This document shows positions 1 to 7,311 of a DNA stretch of 64,000 nt, in pieces. Position 1 is the stretch's first letter, and the number at the start of each line of letters is the position of its first letter. Below the pieces are notes generated by a model. It did no database searches. It was not told where the DNA came from and worked only from the letters and a program-made list of their open reading frames with translations. The stretch lies in the NCBI GenBank assembly GCA_913056345.1, contig CAJXMH010000008.1:1-64000 (forward strand), read 5' to 3'. The translations under genes and the position numbers were made by a program. The stretch is from an uncultured Flavobacteriales bacterium (GTDB taxonomy: Bacteria; Bacteroidota; Bacteroidia; Flavobacteriales_E; Vicingaceae).

Positions 1-62
1 CTGGCGGACAAAGATTCGGTTTCAAAATCCCGCACTTGCCATAGCCAGGGCCGTTGTGAGCC
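1..62 (+). repeat. attC-like site, right end only (start of cassette array)
   Basis: The window opens inside an imperfect palindrome whose right arm (GCACTTGCCATAG, 32-44) recurs in the sites ending at 3180, 6666 and 7555. It ends in the core GTTGTGAGCC (53-62), where integron recombination would cut between G53 and T54. The left half lies outside the window, so the array continues to the left. Confidence 0.65.
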
Positions 63-70
63 ATGAAAAA

Positions 71-928
71 ATGCTAAAAATATTTATCCATATATTTTTG
101 ATTCTAACCCTTACTGCTTGCAATCAAGACAAGAAGCAAGTAAGTCAAACTGAACCTATCACTATTTCTAAATTTAAAAATCTACAAATTGATTATTGGA
201 CGGGGGACGAATACAGGTACAAAAAGCAAATGAAGTTTGATAAAGCAGAAAATGAAATAGTTGGTCATTTATTGATGCCCAAATATTATGTTGGAAATGA
301 AGTTCTCGAACCAAAGGGCAAAACTATCACTCAAAATGACTTGCAATTACTCACTGTTTTCTTGGACAAAGCAAATCTATATAAAGATAGCTGTAAGGAA
401 GTTGGACAATCTACATCTAGTGAAGACTATAAGATATTAGTTGACTCGGACACAATAATTATAGAAAGATATTGCGATTGGGGTAATTACACATTTGACC
501 AACTTGAAAAAGAAATATTCTCGGACTTCTTTGATACTCTTAAATTTCAAAGATTAGAACTTGAAAACCGACTTTCTAATCAACTAAGTGGATATTGGAT
601 TCCTATTCAACCGAAAAAAACCATGTCCCGTGGTGATATATTACAACTAACAAAGAGTCAACAAGATGAAAATAACTTAGATTGTTTTTGGAGATTCGAT
701 GATAAGGAATTATTTAAAGATGGTTGCTCTGACCTTCTCGACCTGACAAGGTCTAAGACATATAGATGGGATATTGACGAAGGGCGTATTTCATTTTCGA
801 TATCTTCAGGTTGGAAAAAAATATTACATAACGGTGATTCAGTTTTGACAACGGCAAATTACGGAGCAACTTTTAACTTAATAAGTTTGACGAAAGATGA
901 ACTTAAACTTGAGTATTTATGGGATTAA
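71..928 (+). CDS. Cassette 1: hypothetical lipoprotein
   Basis: I do not recognise the family. The protein is about 285 aa and begins with a lipoprotein signal: hydrophobic run IFLILTLTA then Cys (lipobox LTAC), so it is probably exported and lipidated. I choose ATG71; the upstream GTG56 would start within the recombination core and spoil the signal peptide, and ATG63 is out of frame and stops at once. It is the only gene of the first cassette. The bases GTTGTGAGCC just before the gene are the exact reverse complement of GGCTCACAAC just after it (937-946), the mark of a cassette end pair. No promoter fits in the few bases upstream, so expression probably depends on readthrough. Confidence 0.7.
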   Translation: MLKIFIHIFLILTLTACNQDKKQVSQTEPITISKFKNLQIDYWTGDEYRYKKQMKFDKAENEIVGHLLMPKYYVGNEVLEPKGKTITQNDLQLLTVFLDKANLYKDSCKEVGQSTSSEDYKILVDSDTIIIERYCDWGNYTFDQLEKEIFSDFFDTLKFQRLELENRLSNQLSGYWIPIQPKKTMSRGDILQLTKSQQDENNLDCFWRFDDKELFKDGCSDLLDLTRSKTYRWDIDEGRISFSISSGWKKILHNGDSVLTTANYGATFNLISLTKDELKLEYLWD

Positions 929-936
929 AAAAACAC

Positions 937-955
937 GGCTCACAACATAGAACTG
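937..955 (+). repeat. attC of cassette 1, left fragment (split by IS)
   Basis: GGCTCACAAC (937-946) is the inverse core (R'') of the attC that follows cassette 1; it complements GTTGTGAGCC at 53-62 over 10 of 10 bases. The next arm of the palindrome (L'') is not here but at 2173, beyond the IS110-family element, so this attC is interrupted between its R'' and L'' boxes. Confidence 0.65.
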
Positions 956-987
956 AGCTTAAAAACAAGTATTTCTCAAATTAAATT

Positions 988-1962
988 TTAACTCTTTACT
1001 ACCAAACTGCTTTTATAATTTTCATCATACATTAAACCTGATTTTGCAATACTAAAAGCTTGAATTACCAACTTGTTGCAAACGGCTATAAGTGCTAACT
1101 TCTTACTTTTTCCTTTAGCCACTAATCGTTCATACAGAGATTTACACGCTGGATTGCATTGGCAGGCAGTAAAGCTGCACATAAATAAATGATTTCGAAT
1201 CAAAGCATTTCCACTTTTACTTATTCGGCTTACTCCTCTCACACTACTTCCTGAACTCCTTTCTGTTGGGGCTAAGCCATAAAAGGACTTCAATTGACCT
1301 GCACTCTCAAAATTCTTAAACGCATTGGAGCTTACTATCAAAAAGATGGCTGTTTTACGGCCTATTCCGGGGATTGAAGCTACATGACTTAACATCGCAG
1401 GTTCATTTTCCTTTATCAAGGTTTCTAATGCTTCTTCTAGCTTTTGTATCTCTCCTTGAATCGACTTCTTCTGTCTCTGTAAAGACTTTACTAAAACCTT
1501 GTATTCAGACCCTTTGCTTTTCAAGCTATGTAACTTATTGCTTAAAGCTGTATGCTGTTTAAAATATGTTTGAATACAACTTTGAAGCATTTTACAACAA
1601 TCGATGTATTCCGGATCAGGCTCCCACAATTCCAAGGGTTGATTCGAACCGTACATAGCAATCATTTTCGCATCACTTTTATCTGTCTTGTTTCGTTGAA
1701 GCTTCATTTGAATAAATCGCTTCACAACCAAAGCATTCACCACACTTACCAAATAATTCTTTTTATGCAAAAAAATTGCTAATGGCTGGTGATAACTTCC
1801 CGTATTCTCTATTACACACCAACATTCCTTGTTCAACCATTTATGAAACAACCTAAAGCCTTCTTTATCATTTTTAAACTTTTGATGTCCCATACTTGGC
1901 TCATAAACATCGAAGGTATCTTTCGAGACATCAATACCTACAAATAATGTATTTTTACTCAT
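988..1962 (-). CDS. IS110-family transposase (DEDD, 324 aa)
   Basis: RNA-guided recombinase of the IS110/IS1111 family. The N-terminal RuvC-like DEDD domain starts with FVGIDVSKDTFDV (first catalytic Asp in GIDVSKD). A middle coiled-coil stretch (about residues 130-185) is followed by the Transposase_20 domain with SIPGIGRKTA and, near residue 240, the serine-rich SGSSVRGVSRISKSGN motif that carries the family's catalytic serine. Length is typical and there is no frameshift, so the gene looks intact. It sits inside the attC following cassette 1. Family assignment is firm; I infer IS110 rather than IS1111 subgroup from the long non-coding end being upstream of the gene. Confidence 0.93.
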   Translation of the reverse strand: MSKNTLFVGIDVSKDTFDVYEPSMGHQKFKNDKEGFRLFHKWLNKECWCVIENTGSYHQPLAIFLHKKNYLVSVVNALVVKRFIQMKLQRNKTDKSDAKMIAMYGSNQPLELWEPDPEYIDCCKMLQSCIQTYFKQHTALSNKLHSLKSKGSEYKVLVKSLQRQKKSIQGEIQKLEEALETLIKENEPAMLSHVASIPGIGRKTAIFLIVSSNAFKNFESAGQLKSFYGLAPTERSSGSSVRGVSRISKSGNALIRNHLFMCSFTACQCNPACKSLYERLVAKGKSKKLALIAVCNKLVIQAFSIAKSGLMYDENYKSSLVVKS

Positions 1963-2140
1963 AACTAAACGTTTTGAAGAACAGAAACTACTTGATTACA
2001 AGAACCTAAAACAGGCTTTAATGCCCAATGAACTGATCATAATTTAAGTAGTAAAAGAGCGGGGATCTTCCATGTTGACGGAATTCGTACTTCCAGTCTG
2101 TATAATGACCTTATTCCGCTCTTTTGTTCTTTGATTTATA
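1963..2140 (-). ncRNA. Candidate bridge RNA of the IS110 element
   Basis: The ~200 nt upstream of the transposase carries no ORF. It holds a 10-bp inverted repeat, AAAAGAGCGG (2053-2062) and CCGCTCTTTT (2116-2125), enclosing a 53-nt loop region. IS110 elements are known to encode a structured guide (bridge) RNA in exactly this non-coding end. The exact RNA ends and the target- and donor-binding loops are not resolved by eye. Confidence 0.5.
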
Positions 2141-2162
2141 TCCTAAATTTAAATAAAACACA

Positions 2163-2359
2163 AGCTTAGGCGCTGTATAGTGCATTGTGGGTCAGGTGGG
2201 TTAGCTATTTAGGTAGCTATTTTCAAGCTCGCAAAATCCGCTAGCGGATTTTGTAAAAAGTAAAGAAACAAAACCGCAAAGCGGTTTTTGCTAAGTGCGA
2301 AACTGAAATTGTACCTTTATCAAAACCACAACGACACCATACAGTAAACGTTAGCCTTA
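2163..2359 (+). repeat. attC of cassette 1, right part
   Basis: The left arm CTGTATAGTGCATTGTGG (2173-2190) pairs imperfectly with the right arm at 2326-2344 (reverse complement CTGTATGGTGTCGTTGTGG). The site ends in core GTTAGCCTTA (2350-2359), cut point after G2350. Between the arms are smaller palindromes, including AAAATCCGCTAGCGGATTTT (2235-2254) and AAACCGC/GCGGTTT. The left end of the site lies at 937-946, across the IS. Confidence 0.65.
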
Positions 2360-2362
2360 ATT

Positions 2363-2992
2363 ATGAAATATTTAATATCATTCTCAATTTTAACTCTACT
2401 ACTTAGCTGCAAGCAAACTTTAATAGGAGAGTATTCAAATTGCGGAAGTGATAGTTATGGATGCAGCTTTCTAATACTATCTGATGATAGTAGTTTTAAA
2501 TATGGTACACCTAATCATAAACATACAGGAACTAAAGAGACTAATGGAAAATTTGAAATTAAAAGTGACACAATAATTCTAAACAACTACTTAAATTTTC
2601 ATTCAATAATTCCAGCTAACACCAAATCACATTCGGATAGTTTCCAAGTAATTCAAATAATACAAGCATACAATGATTTAAAACAGCATGAATGTGGTTT
2701 TGCAAAAGTAGTTACAGATAATAATCTTAACCTTTTAGCTGACTCATCGGGTTTTGTAAGAATTAGAAAAAACAGTATTGATTCTTTAAGGATTGAGTAT
2801 GTAGGATGTCATATAAAATGGATTGATTTGTCAGACAAAGAATCAAACCAAGACTCTATTATAATACAATGTAATCTCGAGAATATCGGACACCCCGAAT
2901 TAATTGACTTTAAATTTCTAATAAAGAACGACTCATTATTATGCTTAAAACACCCTTATGAGCCTTGGCACTTAAAAAGAAATAAAAACTAA
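2363..2992 (+). CDS. Cassette 2: hypothetical lipoprotein
   Basis: A 209-aa protein of unknown family. It starts with a lipoprotein signal (MKYLISFSILTLLLSC, Cys at residue 16), so it is probably anchored in the envelope. The body is rich in Asn, Ser and aromatic residues with several Cys (GSDSYGCSF, KQHECGF, YVGCH). It lies alone between cassette cores; the bases before it (GTTAGCCTTA, 2350-2359) and after it (TAAGGCTAAC, 2990-2999) are perfect 10-bp reverse complements. The stop codon abuts the inverse core, leaving no room for a terminator other than the attC palindrome itself. Confidence 0.7.
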   Translation: MKYLISFSILTLLLSCKQTLIGEYSNCGSDSYGCSFLILSDDSSFKYGTPNHKHTGTKETNGKFEIKSDTIILNNYLNFHSIIPANTKSHSDSFQVIQIIQAYNDLKQHECGFAKVVTDNNLNLLADSSGFVRIRKNSIDSLRIEYVGCHIKWIDLSDKESNQDSIIIQCNLENIGHPELIDFKFLIKNDSLLCLKHPYEPWHLKRNKN

Positions 2993-3189
2993 GGCTAACA
3001 GCAACTATAGCAAATGCTACTTCTAATAAAACCGACACTTCGACTCTATTTACTCGCCAATTCACCTGCGGCGAATTGCCTTATGAAAAGTAAATTAGCC
3101 AATCGCCTTGGTAATTGGCTACCGACTTTGCAAATTGAAATTGAAGTAGGTTTTAAAACGCACTTGCCATAGTCAAAACGTTGGCCGCA
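2990..3189 (+). repeat. attC-like site after cassette 2
   Basis: About 200 nt long. R'' TAAGGCTAAC, then left arm CTATAGCAAATGC, opposed by right arm GCACTTGCCATAG (reverse complement CTATGGCAAGTGC) and core GTTGGCCGCA (3180-3189). The inner part pairs further (AATAAAACCGACACTTC against GAAGTAGGTTTTAAAAC). The two arms differ by small mismatches and spacer lengths, the asymmetry expected of attC. Confidence 0.7.
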
Positions 3190-3195
3190 ATTATA

Positions 3196-3774
3196 ATGAG
3201 ACGATTAATAATACTATTGACGATTTGTTTGGGGACTTTAGTTGGTCATTCACAAACATATAGCAACATCATTCCAGACAGTGAGATTGTATCATTCTTA
3301 ACTTGGGAAATAAAATCAACTGATGGATACTCTGAAGAATCTTTTCTATCACCCAAGAGAAAGATCTTTTATAGAATTAGTGATTGGGATACTTTGAACT
3401 TTATTAAACCAGACACTCTCAATGATTATGAATTTTTAGCAAATCTATTTTTCTTATATCAAGATAGGAACAAGTTGGACACGATTTTTAACCAAGAGGA
3501 TAGAGACTTTATTTTCCAACAGTTTACTGATATCAAAGACACACTATGGCAACATAAGTTTCCGAAAGCAATAATTACTGATAAAAAAAACAAGAAAAGA
3601 CCAAGTCGATATTACTACTCATTGCCACTATTTTCAAAAGACAAAAAGCACGTAATCATTAAGCGAGAATATTATTGCGGGAGTTTATGTGCTCATGGAG
3701 GCTACTTTATTTACAAACGACTAGATGATAAAACATGGAAATTAGTCACTGTCGTTAATAGATGGGTAAGCTGA
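3196..3774 (+). CDS. Cassette 3: exported hypothetical protein
   Basis: A 192-aa protein starting at ATG3196; the longer TTG reading (3181) would begin inside the recombination core. The first ~20 residues (RRLIILLTICLGTLVGHSQ) form a Sec signal peptide with likely cleavage after HSQ. The C-terminal half contains YYYSLPLFS and EYYCGSLCAHGGYFIY, a pattern I associate with small secreted Bacteroidota proteins of unknown function. GTTGGCCGCA before and TGCGGCCAAC after the gene (3785-3794) are perfect reverse complements. Confidence 0.7.
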   Translation: MRRLIILLTICLGTLVGHSQTYSNIIPDSEIVSFLTWEIKSTDGYSEESFLSPKRKIFYRISDWDTLNFIKPDTLNDYEFLANLFFLYQDRNKLDTIFNQEDRDFIFQQFTDIKDTLWQHKFPKAIITDKKNKKRPSRYYYSLPLFSKDKKHVIIKREYYCGSLCAHGGYFIYKRLDDKTWKLVTVVNRWVS

Positions 3775-3784
3775 TAAAAAAAAC

Positions 3785-3922
3785 TGCGGCCAACACGAGG
3801 CTAAAACTAATGCGGAGTAAGTGGCAAAAATTTAAGATATTGCAAGCAATAAACTACGCAGCGGACAGACAAGACCGGTGCTTTGAAGTCCGCACTAGTC
3901 TTAGCCCTGTACGTTGTGGTTA
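3785..3922 (+). repeat. attC-like site after cassette 3
   Basis: A shorter site (~138 nt) of a different sequence family. R'' TGCGGCCAAC; left arm GAGGCTAAAACTAATGCGG; right arm reverse complement CAGGGCTAAGACTAGTGCGG; core GTTGTGGTTA (3913-3922), cut after G3913. Arm sequence differs from the sites at 2990 and 6413 while pairing is kept, so the structure rather than the sequence is conserved. Confidence 0.7.
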
Positions 3923-3929
3923 ATTAAAA

Positions 3930-5093
3930 ATGACGAAGAGATTTATTAAACCTGGAGACGATGTTGATGGTCCTCTGTATTCTATTCAGACAGACGGAGA
4001 AATGGTTTGTGCTTCTCATACGAAAAGTGACTACATCAATCATTGGATTAGAACCCAAGGAGAAAAGGTCAATTGTACATATTGCAACAAACTGAGAAAC
4101 TGTATTGAGCTTTCTGATTTATTAGATCTGATTGTAGTTGGAATTGACTGCCTATTTGAAGATCCTGCAAATAGCAGGTACTTAAACAAAGATTCTGAAT
4201 ACGGGTTCGATGGAAACGTTTTTGATTTTTACGAACTATGGCACGAAGACCGATTAGGTTTAGAAATAAACAATGATAAATTATTTGAAGACGCTTTCAA
4301 GTATTTCAACTGTGACCAGTTATTTGTTGACAAAGATGAATTTGGATCAGAACTTGAGTATTTCGAAGATGTATGGGCTCACTTTACATCAATAGTGAAA
4401 TACAAAGCACGATACGTATTCCATCGAGAAGAAGAGTTTCAAAATCATCAGTTTACCGATCCAGTAACCATCTTGTTCTCAATAGAAAAATCCATAAAGA
4501 ACTTCAATCTATTTAAAACCATTCCAGCAAATAGTATTCTATATCGCTGTCGGCAACATGAGAAAAATGCTGTAAAAAATGGAGCCGACATGGCGTCACC
4601 ACCTTCTGATTGTCAAAAAGTAAATGGCAGGATGAGTCCTGCAGGAATCTCTATGTTTTATTGCAGTCAAAAGAAGGCGTTAACAATACAAGAAGTCGTT
4701 AGAAAGTCGCGAAAAGACAAGCCATATTATTCAACAGCCATATTCAGAAACAACAAGTCATTAAACTTGGTAGACTTGTCGATAATACCTGAAATACCCA
4801 GTATTTATGACTCCGATAAGAATCATACAATTGCCAAGTTACTCTTCCTTAAAGGGTTTTCAAATGATATATCCAAGAGCATTAATGATAGTGACGAAAT
4901 AATTGAGTACATCCCGACCCAAATTGTAACGGAATATATCAAGTACAACAAGGAATTAAAAGCAGATGGTATTATTTATAATTCTTCAAAGAATGATAAA
5001 ATGAAAAATATTGTTCTCTTTTTCGATCATGAACAATCAACAGAAAATCTGACATTTTCAGAAAGAAGCCTAAGAACGAATAAATGGAAATAA
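3930..5093 (+). CDS. Cassette 4: HEPN-associated/RES domain protein
   Basis: A 387-aa protein, no signal peptide. The N-terminal part (about 1-130) has CTYCNKLRNC, a possible small zinc knuckle, and acidic helices; it resembles the HEPN-associated N-terminal domain found in front of RES domains. The C-terminal part (about 190-370) resembles a RES domain: SILYRCR, then GRMSPAGISMFYCS, then a late Ser. Known RES toxins degrade NAD+. No separate Xre-type antitoxin gene lies next to it in the cassette, so either it is regulated differently or is a nucleotide-acting defence effector. The family call is by motif memory and only fairly sure. Cassette ends GTTGTGGTTA and TAAACACAAC pair at 9 of 10 positions. 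Confidence 0.65.
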   Translation: MTKRFIKPGDDVDGPLYSIQTDGEMVCASHTKSDYINHWIRTQGEKVNCTYCNKLRNCIELSDLLDLIVVGIDCLFEDPANSRYLNKDSEYGFDGNVFDFYELWHEDRLGLEINNDKLFEDAFKYFNCDQLFVDKDEFGSELEYFEDVWAHFTSIVKYKARYVFHREEEFQNHQFTDPVTILFSIEKSIKNFNLFKTIPANSILYRCRQHEKNAVKNGADMASPPSDCQKVNGRMSPAGISMFYCSQKKALTIQEVVRKSRKDKPYYSTAIFRNNKSLNLVDLSIIPEIPSIYDSDKNHTIAKLLFLKGFSNDISKSINDSDEIIEYIPTQIVTEYIKYNKELKADGIIYNSSKNDKMKNIVLFFDHEQSTENLTFSERSLRTNKWK

Positions 5094-5098
5094 AAAAC

Positions 5099-5235
5099 TA
5101 AACACAACAATGGGTATAATTCATAAGGGTCTCAGAGGTTTTCGAGCGGTATCACCCGCATCAATTTTGGTTGGTGACTTGATAGGTTTGAAGCCCGCAA
5201 TCCCTTAGAAAATCATACACTCAACGTTGTACACA
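5099..5235 (+). repeat. attC-like site after cassette 4
   Basis: R'' TAAACACAAC (5099-5108); left arm GGGTATAATTCATAAGGG; right arm reverse complement GAGTGTATGATTTTCTAAGGG; core GTTGTACACA (5226-5235), cut after G5226. Length ~137 nt. Again its own arm sequence with conserved pairing. Confidence 0.65.
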
Positions 5236-5255
5236 AAATTGAAATAAAAACTATT

Positions 5256-5681
5256 ATGAAATATTTATTAATTGCTATTTTACTTGGTTGCTCACAAGTT
5301 GCAAATTCGCAGTCGATAGACAAATCCGATATTATTGGACAGTGGACTGTAACTAAAGGAAAGACGACGTCAAGTGACCTGCCCACGGATGTAAACCAAA
5401 TGATGACTATGATGATTAACGGATTCGACCAGTCAGTTTGGACATTTAACTCTAATGGGAGATTCAGGATAGAATTTACTAAGGAGTTATCGCCAGTAAT
5501 GGAGGAAATGAAATTCTTGGATAATAAGCTTTGGAAGTATATTGACTCATCAAACCTGATAAAAATTGGAACGAAGAAAGATAATTTCAACCATTTGGTA
5601 TTGTCAGCTAAAGCAGTTGAATCAGATATAGAAATCCAATTTAGTGACACTCCAATTATTTTAACGTTGAGAAAGAAATAA
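5256..5681 (+). CDS. Cassette 5: small exported lipocalin-like protein
   Basis: A 141-aa protein with an N-terminal signal (MKYLLIAILLGCSQVANSQ; cleavage probably after NSQ, although the Cys at residue 12 could be a lipobox). The mature part starts DIIGQWTVTKGK and contains WTFNSNGRFRIEF, the pattern of short lipocalin-like domains in Bacteroidota. Function unknown. Unlike cassettes 1-4, the bases at its two ends (GTTGTACACA and TTTTGCTAAC) do not complement each other. Confidence 0.65.
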   Translation: MKYLLIAILLGCSQVANSQSIDKSDIIGQWTVTKGKTTSSDLPTDVNQMMTMMINGFDQSVWTFNSNGRFRIEFTKELSPVMEEMKFLDNKLWKYIDSSNLIKIGTKKDNFNHLVLSAKAVESDIEIQFSDTPIILTLRKK

Positions 5682-5690
5682 ATAAAAAAC

Positions 5691-5858
5691 TTTTGCTAAC
5701 AAAAACTATAAAATACCTGCCCGACCGGCAGGCGGGTAATCGCAGTCAAGGTTTAGCAAAGGTTTGATTACCTTTAGTGCTAAATTTAACCGACACTGCT
5801 TGCGGCTACATTTCATAGTCTGAGCTTCAGCCAAAATGGGATGAAGTAGTTAGCTCAA
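5691..5858 (+). repeat. attC-like site after cassette 5 (atypical)
   Basis: R'' TTTTGCTAAC (5691-5700); left arm AACTATAAAATACC against right arm CATTTCATAGT. It contains a GC-rich palindrome (CCTGCCCGACCGGCAGGCGGG, about 5717-5737). The nearest core, GTTAGCTCAA (5849-5858), lies ~30 nt farther from the right arm than in the other sites, so this site is probably altered. Confidence 0.45.
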
Positions 5859-5892: not shown

Positions 5893-6117
5893 ATGGATAT
5901 CCAAAGCATAAAATCAGAATTAGTAAGAGGTATTCTACAAACCAACAGCAAAGAGTTATTGAATAAATTGTACTCTACTTTAAAAGCAGAGAGTATCGAA
6001 AGTGACTTTTGGACTGAACTAACAGATGCTCAGAAAGCTGAGGTAGAACTAGGACTCAAACAAATAAAAAATGGAGACTACATTGAGTTTGAAGACTTTC
6101 TGAAAAAAGTTTCATGA
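5893..6117 (+). CDS. Cassette 6: antitoxin, ParD/RelB-like addiction module component
   Basis: A 74-aa acidic protein with helical N-terminus and a C-terminal half reading SDFWTELTDAQKAEVELGLKQIKNGDYIEFEDFLKK, a pattern of short addiction-module antitoxins paired with ParE/RelE toxins. It overlaps the toxin reading frame by 4 nt (ATGA), i.e. translational coupling. A Bacteroidota-type -7 element TAACTTTG (5869-5876) lies just upstream, suggesting that this cassette, unlike the single-gene ones, has its own promoter. No clear -33 TTG was found. The antitoxin frame is intact. Confidence 0.75.
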   Translation: MDIQSIKSELVRGILQTNSKELLNKLYSTLKAESIESDFWTELTDAQKAEVELGLKQIKNGDYIEFEDFLKKVS

Positions 6118-6421
6118 AGATTAGACTTTCCTCTTTAGCTGCTTTCAAACTTGAACTGCTTGTAGAATACTTAGAAGAAAGATGGTCTGCTAGAGTTAAG
6201 CTGAAATTTCTCAAAAAGCTTGAAAAAGGTTTAAATGTAGCTGCAAACAATCCTAATGCATTCCCACAAAGTCAAATTAGACCTGAACTAAGAAAATTAG
6301 TCATAAGCAAGCAACTGCGCTATACTTAGTTGACTCAGACTCATTATTTGTAATCACCATTTTTGACACAAGGCAAGCCCCCAGTGAAATTGACAAAGAA
6401 ATAAAAAAACACTTTGGCTAA
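6114..6421 (+). pseudogene. Cassette 6: ParE/RelE-family toxin, frameshifted
   Basis: The frame from 6114 gives a ParE-like protein (AAFKLELLVEYLEERW, then LRKLVISKQ) but stops early at 6329. Another frame continues from about 6313 with ALYLVDSDSLFVITIFDTRQ and ends HFG at 6421, which is the expected last strand of a ParE toxin (IFDTRQ near the C-terminus). One missing base near 6311 would rejoin the two. The conserved C-terminal basic/aromatic residues are thus lost from the main product, and the toxin is probably inactive. A sequencing error is the alternative. The restored stop codon lies inside the attC inverse core. Confidence 0.7.
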
Positions 6422-6675
6422 CAGCAACTATAGCAAATGCTAATACTTAGAAAACCGACACTTCCACTCTACTTGCTCGCCAATCACGCCATGGCGTGAT
6501 TGCCTTAGAAAATGTAAATTAGCCAATCGCCCTTTGCGTCGCTGAAGCTTCTCCTTCGTAGTACTTCGGAGAAGGAGCTTTGCGAAAGCACCTTGGCAAT
6601 TGGCTACCGACTTTGCAAAACGAAATTGAAGTAGGTTTTAAAACGCACTTGCCATAGTCAAAACGTTGGCAAACA
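6413..6675 (+). repeat. attC-like site after cassette 6 (long form)
   Basis: About 260 nt. R'' TTTGGCTAAC (6413-6422), left arm CTATAGCAAATGC, right arm GCACTTGCCATAG, core GTTGGCAAAC (6666-6675). A nested hairpin module (TTCTCC...GGAGAA, about 6548-6575) extends the tip relative to the site at 2990. It is nearly identical to the site at 7303-7564. R'' complements the start of its own cassette (GTTAGCTCAA, 5849) at 8 of 10 positions. Confidence 0.7.
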
Positions 6676-6703
6676 TCCCCAAAATCTATTAAAATAAATA
6701 CTT

Positions 6704-6724
6704 ATCTTTGACGTTAGTAACGTA
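6704..6724 (+). promoter_or_regulatory. Promoter -7 element and operator of the HigBA cassette
   Basis: TATCTTTG (6704-6711) matches the Bacteroidota -7 consensus TAnnTTTG. Directly after it lies a perfect inverted repeat, ACGTTA-G-TAACGT (6712-6724), covering the predicted transcription start, the usual place for antitoxin binding and autorepression. A -33 TTG at the right spacing is not seen. Confidence 0.55.
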
Positions 6725-6730
6725 AGAGGT

Positions 6731-7012
6731 ATGATAGTTAGCTTTGGTGCTAAAGAGACTGAAAAAATTTGGAATGGTAAACGGGTAAAAAAGCTATCGC
6801 TTGACATTCAACAAACAGGAAGAAGAAAATTAAGAATGCTCAATAACTCTGTTGATATTGCTGATTTGAGAATACCTCCTTCTAACAGACTTGAAAAGCT
6901 TGGAGGAAATTTAAAGGACTTTTACAGCATCAGAATTAATAAGCAATGGAGAATTATTTTCAAATGGAATAATGGCAATGCCTCTGAAGTTGAAATAATA
7001 GACTATCATTAA
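6731..7012 (+). CDS. higB: Cassette 7: HigB-type toxin
   Basis: A 93-aa basic protein of the HigB/RelE-like mRNA-interferase family. Recognisable features: N-terminal FGAKETEKIWNG, middle RKLRMLNNSVDIADLRIPPSNRLEKL, then the characteristic core DFYSIRINKQWRIIFKW and C-terminal EVEIIDYH with the final His. Length is typical and the frame is intact. The toxin gene comes first, followed two bases later by the HigA antitoxin, the reversed order typical of higBA loci. HigB toxins bind ribosomes and cleave mRNA; that activity here is inferred from the family. Confidence 0.85.
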   Translation: MIVSFGAKETEKIWNGKRVKKLSLDIQQTGRRKLRMLNNSVDIADLRIPPSNRLEKLGGNLKDFYSIRINKQWRIIFKWNNGNASEVEIIDYH

Positions 7013-7014
7013 TT

Positions 7015-7311
7015 ATGGACAAATTAGATAACATACACCCGGGTGAGATTTTAAAACTTGAATTTTTAGATCCTTTGAAAATCTCTGCTTACAGACTTTC
7101 AAAAGACCTTCTAATTCCTCAGACTAGGATTTCAGAGATTATAAAAGGAAATAGAAGAATAACAGCTGATACAGCGCTACGTTTAAGTAGATATTTTGGC
7201 AATTCTGCTAAATTTTGGCTTGGACTTCAAGATGATTATGACATTGAAGAAGAAAAAAAAGCTAAAGCAAAGGATTTGAAATTGATAGAGAGAAATAAAA
7301 ACGTGGCTTAA
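7015..7311 (+). CDS. higA: Cassette 7: HigA-type antitoxin (Xre HTH)
   Basis: A 98-aa protein of the HigA family: start NIHPGEILKLEFLDPLKIS, then an HTH (YRLSKDLLIPQTRISEIIKGNRRIT) and ALRLSRYFGNSAKFWLGLQDDYD, all canonical. It should neutralise HigB and bind the inverted repeat at 6712-6724. The stop codon (7309-7311) lies within the attC inverse core GTGGCTTAAC, so the cassette has no spare sequence after its last gene. The C-terminal lysine-rich tail is variable in the family. Confidence 0.87.
   Translation: MDKLDNIHPGEILKLEFLDPLKISAYRLSKDLLIPQTRISEIIKGNRRITADTALRLSRYFGNSAKFWLGLQDDYDIEEEKKAKAKDLKLIERNKNVA

Follow-up and report, generated by a model that had tools for sequence, protein, structure and literature searches.

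Insertion sequences (IS) of the IS110 group, IS621 among them, have been described as carrying a bridge RNA (PMC11208160, PMC11208158). The known insertion sequences that target attC, the recombination sites of integron cassettes, form a group (ISKpn4, ISPst6, ISPa21 and ISPa25) that is of the IS1111 type and comes from Proteobacteria; in this group, the guide RNA lies downstream of the transposase gene (tnp), the order of the guides is reversed, the ends carry subterminal inverted repeats, and RNA guidance has been published for ISKpn4 and ISPst6 (PMC11187229). Class C-attC group II introns are further mobile elements that insert at attC (cited in PMC9229058). Here, we analysed the first 64,000 nucleotides of contig CAJXMH010000008.1 from an uncultured Flavobacteriales bacterium (hereinafter, the window), where an IS110-family element of 1,223 bp, located at positions 948-2170, interrupts the attC of cassette 1 in a cassette array. 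Judging from the sequence, we consider it very probable that the element belongs to the IS110 group, that its recombinase gene is intact and that its left end encodes a bridge RNA addressing attC. The split site and the element are composed as follows.

937-947, forward strand: R'' (inverse core) end of cassette 1's interrupted attC, GGCTCACAACA, ending in CACAACA; AACA is also found at the right-end junctions of 38 of 40 copies and in the array's other four attCs
948-2170, reverse strand: IS110-type insertion sequence of 1223 bp, with the left end CCTAAGCTTG at 2170 and the right end, finishing in AAGCTCAGTTCTA, at 948
988-1962, reverse strand: DEDD/serine recombinase of 324 aa, the sole gene of the element (PF01548, 2e-21; PF02371, 6.6e-20)
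2171-2194, forward strand: L'' arm of the split attC, beginning CGCTGTATAG and pairing with L'
2325-2356, forward strand: L' arm (approximately 2325-2344) and R' core GTTAGCC (2350-2356) of the split attC

To set the ends of the element, it was aligned with about 40 relatives as well as with intact attCs; the right end is uncertain by ±1 nt. Read on the attC strand, the junctions are GGCTCACAACA, the IS, and then CGCTGTATAGTGCATTGTGGG from position 2171. Because the four other attCs of the array show the same layout without an IS, namely AACA, five nucleotides and a TATA or TATA-like tetranucleotide, we can place the IS between the R'' end and L'', with no base visibly duplicated or lost. Pairing of L'' with L' reaches -21.2 kcal/mol (p 0.007 against shuffled arms). 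A preliminary description of this DNA had put the element between the inverse core and the left arm of the attC after cassette 1, and had pointed to a long non-coding end and a short downstream flank. The placement is confirmed, with coordinates that were right within a few bases, and the non-coding flanks of the gene inside the element measure 208 nt upstream and 40 nt downstream. Both domains of the recombinase, PF01548 (RuvC-like) and PF02371 (Tnp), score above cut-off; its best solved relative is the IS621 transposase (8wt6, E 1.6e-37), and the D, E, D and D residues together with the serine motif SGSSVRG align with those residues of IS621 for which roles have been described (PMC11208158).

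The genome of the window contains a single copy of the element, and searches of whole genomes and contigs revealed 39 further copies, with transposases 46-71% identical. The hosts belong to the family of the window's bacterium and to another family of its class (f5), and further include a Lewinellaceae, a Cytophagales and a Bacteroidales bin; all close relatives found are Bacteroidota, and no relatives were found in the viral contigs scanned. When the insertion sites were tabulated, as the preliminary description had proposed, the right-end junction proved to be AACA (complement TGTT) in 38 of the 40 copies, always in the same orientation. An L' partner is supported at p ≤0.05 in 18 of the 40 (in 16 of these, 114-120 nt from the IS), and five more copies have an L' at p 0.05-0.1; seven copies offer no usable left flank, because the contig stops at or within the IS, or because the left end of the IS was not recognised. 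Intact attCs in the genomes of the relatives served as the uninterrupted-site comparison: the counterpart in G549 is 97.3% identical to the split attC of that genome over 112 nt, and that in G466 is 100% identical to its own split attC over the first 60 nt. In G102, four copies share one array and a single orientation, with more than ten intact attCs, and the array ends at an integrase-like gene. Since relatives of at least about 46% identity occupy the same position in attC, with the same orientation, the insertion reflects a site preference, not an accident. That arrays merely tolerate insertions and that attC resembles some generic target could be proposed, given that arrays are non-essential DNA and that two copies (L002 and L010) lie at incomplete sites, but this is extremely improbable: position and orientation are fixed in nearly all 40 copies at different genomic places, the guides presented below match the sites, and the permutation test, the site tabulation and the composite-target count already contradict it.

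More distant relatives, at 42-43% identity, use targets other than attC. For a sister group among them (L003, L065 and L067), the insertion site is a palindromic repeat found dispersed, GTCAT/T(T,G)CGA.., which the guides match, and L071-L073 occupy unrelated sites on Hymenobacter and Adhaeribacter plasmids. The attC preference therefore belongs to a subgroup. One more relative, L064 in G074, is degraded, having a 389-aa frame with one stop that seems to be joined upstream to a tyrosine-recombinase-like N-terminus, whether by fusion, rearrangement or decay.

The long left end of the element is where the putative bridge RNA is encoded. An alignment of left ends from 17 distinct elements gives a consensus of two stem-loops with internal loops, folding into 31 pairs with compensatory changes in 20 of them. 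Projected onto the window, this fold gives the following predicted features.

2053-2124, reverse strand: predicted target-binding loop of the bridge RNA, from the consensus fold with its compensatory changes
2097-2105, reverse strand: left target guide TTATACAGA, matching the target CTATACAGC at 7 of 9 positions
2073-2079, reverse strand: right target guide GTCAACA, the reverse complement of TGTTGAC, pairing with the attC core TGTTR
1987-2052, reverse strand: predicted donor-binding loop of the bridge RNA, from the consensus fold
2026-2035, reverse strand: left donor guide CAGTTCATTG, matching the right end of the element, CAGTTCTATG
2005-2012, reverse strand: right donor guide GTTTTAGG, pairing with the left end of the element, CCTAAG

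Each half of the target has its counterpart in a short segment of the target loop, and the left segment is equal to the target strand left of the cut. The left guide varies from element to element together with the site: it is TATACACG where the sites are TATACACG, ATTAACCG in G445, ATAACCG in G102 and TTATACAG in the window. Scoring with a free offset was noisy for this guide and was replaced by a restricted register, in which none of 100,000 permutations matched guides to their own targets as well as observed, whether the set comprised all 22 elements, only the 16 in attC or 12 representatives; the anchor of L005 was misplaced in this test, and its score (4/9) is too low. In the non-attC relatives, the right guide shifts with the target as well (CGCAATG for ATTGCGA, CGAAATG for ATTTCGA and TTTAACAT for ATGTTAAA). 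On the donor side, the right guide and the left end change together (CC/GG or CT/AG, a TTAGG guide being complementary to a CCTAA end and TTAAG to CTTAA), and the left guide carries CAGTTC, as does the right end of the element. Finally, seven of ten genomes together contain 57 occurrences of TATAYACRTTGTTR, the composite target derived from the guides, mostly clustered in arrays; the reversed control pattern occurs once. Because guides and targets co-vary and the two-loop fold is itself covarying, a guiding role of the predicted RNA in attC targeting, assumed in the preliminary description, is supported.

The four copies in G814 (L020, L028, L034 and L039) deserve a separate comment. Both of their target guides are changed, to TTAAGCAT and GTAAACA, and the copies lie inside L'' (TATAAAAACA, the IS, ATGC), about 13 nt beyond the usual register. 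L039 is still in an attC, with the L' arm GCACTGTTTTTATACG and R' GTTACC; the L' arm of L020 was looked for and not found. G445, a sister of G814, retains the usual right guide and the usual attC register. Judged by these guides, G814 is a case of natural retargeting inside the same recombination site.

It is established that attC sites adopt single-strand folds during cassette recombination, and the sister group at 42-43% identity also targets palindromic repeats. One might therefore suppose that the element recognises the attC hairpin by its shape, as a folded single strand, rather than through RNA guides. We regard this as very improbable: the left guides follow the primary sequence of each element's target, the guide changes in the Hymenobacter relatives and in the repeat-targeting sister group match unrelated targets, and the subgroup with changed guides in G814 sits elsewhere in attC.

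Several observations weigh against recognition of attC by a bridge RNA. Taken by itself, the RNA of the window folds no better than shuffled sequences (z 0.41), so the support for the fold is that of the alignment. The right guide hardly varies among attC elements, and when it was tested loosely, with a free offset, the result was weak, 60 of 100,000 permutations being as good and most elements lying near background. In several copies (L006, L007, L025, L033, L042 and L069), L' is without statistical support, and L002 and L010 lack a full attC, the former having the R'' side only and the latter no L'. RNA expression and transposition are, moreover, inferred steps. As to L002 and L010, the R'' side is kept and L' is unrecognisable, possibly owing to an adjacent deletion or to insertion at array borders.

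Position, orientation, the match between guides and targets and the covarying RNA fold are matters of observation, and they can be brought together in the following scenario. The right guide of the target loop would be fixed on the common attC core TGTTR, the complement of R'' YAACA, while the left guide would be fitted to the L'' arm of the host attCs, which is mostly of the TATA type and of the AAACCGC type in one genome. By analogy with IS621 and with the seekRNA work, the circular form would produce the RNA from a promoter at its junction, the recombinase would bind this RNA, and the two would join the circular IS to attC by strand exchange, always in a single orientation and between R'' and L''. 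Once split, the attC can probably hardly form its recombination hairpin; cassettes 1 and 2 would thus be linked, moving only as one unit together with the IS. This suggests that such elements act as a brake on cassette shuffling in Bacteroidota integrons. With one half constant and the other variable, a bridge RNA may, furthermore, be able to reach recombination sites as an entire class and not just a single sequence, and the natural series of guides and targets, retargeting included, lends itself to testing the rules of bridge RNA pairing, such as core tolerance and guide length.

The window (on contig C8 of genome G000) opens within the cassette array, in which five cassettes are arranged from left to right between position 56 and about 5,850, separated by attC sites that are all of one type. 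According to the list of open reading frames (ORFs), the array layout and, for cassettes 2 to 5, the comparison of attCs, the cassettes are as follows.

56-928, forward strand: ORF of cassette 1, the owner of the split attC
2363-5681, forward strand: cassettes 2 to 5, whose attCs are all of this type

A search for an integron integrase in the genome of the window gave Xer-level matches only; as the contig begins inside the array, the integrase may sit on another contig or in a gap. Cassette 4 (3930-5093) encodes a protein of a toxin-like family, with HEPN_RES_NTD1 and RES domains; no partner for it is evident within the cassette. The R' end of the final attC (5690-5850) is seemingly degenerate, as one would expect where an array is oldest. 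Downstream of the array (5893-7311) there are two toxin-antitoxin-like pairs, one with a ParE-like ORF (below cut-off) and the other consisting of a HigB-like toxin with a helix-turn-helix protein.

How does this element relate to the described systems? With the IS621/IS110 group it shares a homologous recombinase, a long left end with a two-loop RNA, target and donor guides in the same order and the absence of long inverted repeats. It differs from IS621 in its target, which is an integron attC and not a repetitive extragenic palindromic (REP) element, and in that the target base before the cut is not always T: many copies have GT or AT, and GG, GA, GC, AC, TG, AA and CG are found as well. 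The attC as insertion target is what it has in common with the IS1111-attC group. Membership in that group, or horizontal transfer from it, would account for the shared target type and the same broad DEDD recombinase family (PMC11187229), but we find it very improbable, even slightly more so than recognition of the hairpin by shape. The guides of the window element are encoded upstream of tnp, with only 40 nt left downstream, and, as in the IS110 type (PMC11187229), the left-target (bottom-strand) guide comes before the right-target (top-strand) one. A comparison of the two 45-bp ends detected no subterminal inverted repeat, their best match being reached by 17% of shuffles. In addition, the best solved relative belongs to the IS110 group and the close relatives are all Bacteroidota. 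Class C-attC group II introns, unlike the window element, are retroelements of unrelated chemistry.

The separate Bacteroidota lineage with the same preference that the preliminary description had proposed thus stands for relatives of at least about 46% identity, which have the IS110 layout and lie in attC, and does not extend to those at 42-43%, which target other sequences. Its further proposal of convergent targeting is upheld as far as architecture goes: an IS110 layout throughout, set against the published description of the IS1111 type, speaks for a probably independent origin. In the tree of the element and its relatives, a single attC clade is neither proven nor rejected (AU p 0.447), and the base is unresolved between two attC groups, the repeat-targeting group and the Hymenobacter group, so that attC use in this lineage may have arisen once or several times. 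In the literature searched, with subscription papers and ISfinder outside the search, we found no description of an IS110-type or Bacteroidota attC group. Overall, we are inclined to conclude that attC is a repeated destination of RNA-guided recombinases, and that the Bacteroidota harbour an IS110-type lineage independent of the IS1111-attC group, in which one guide is held on the core and the other follows the host arm, both having changed at least once to give a second register. That two architecturally distinct branches target attC is well supported. The IS elements that we found described as attC-targeting in the available papers are of the IS1111 type only, and the lineage presented here constitutes a second branch, of opposite architecture.
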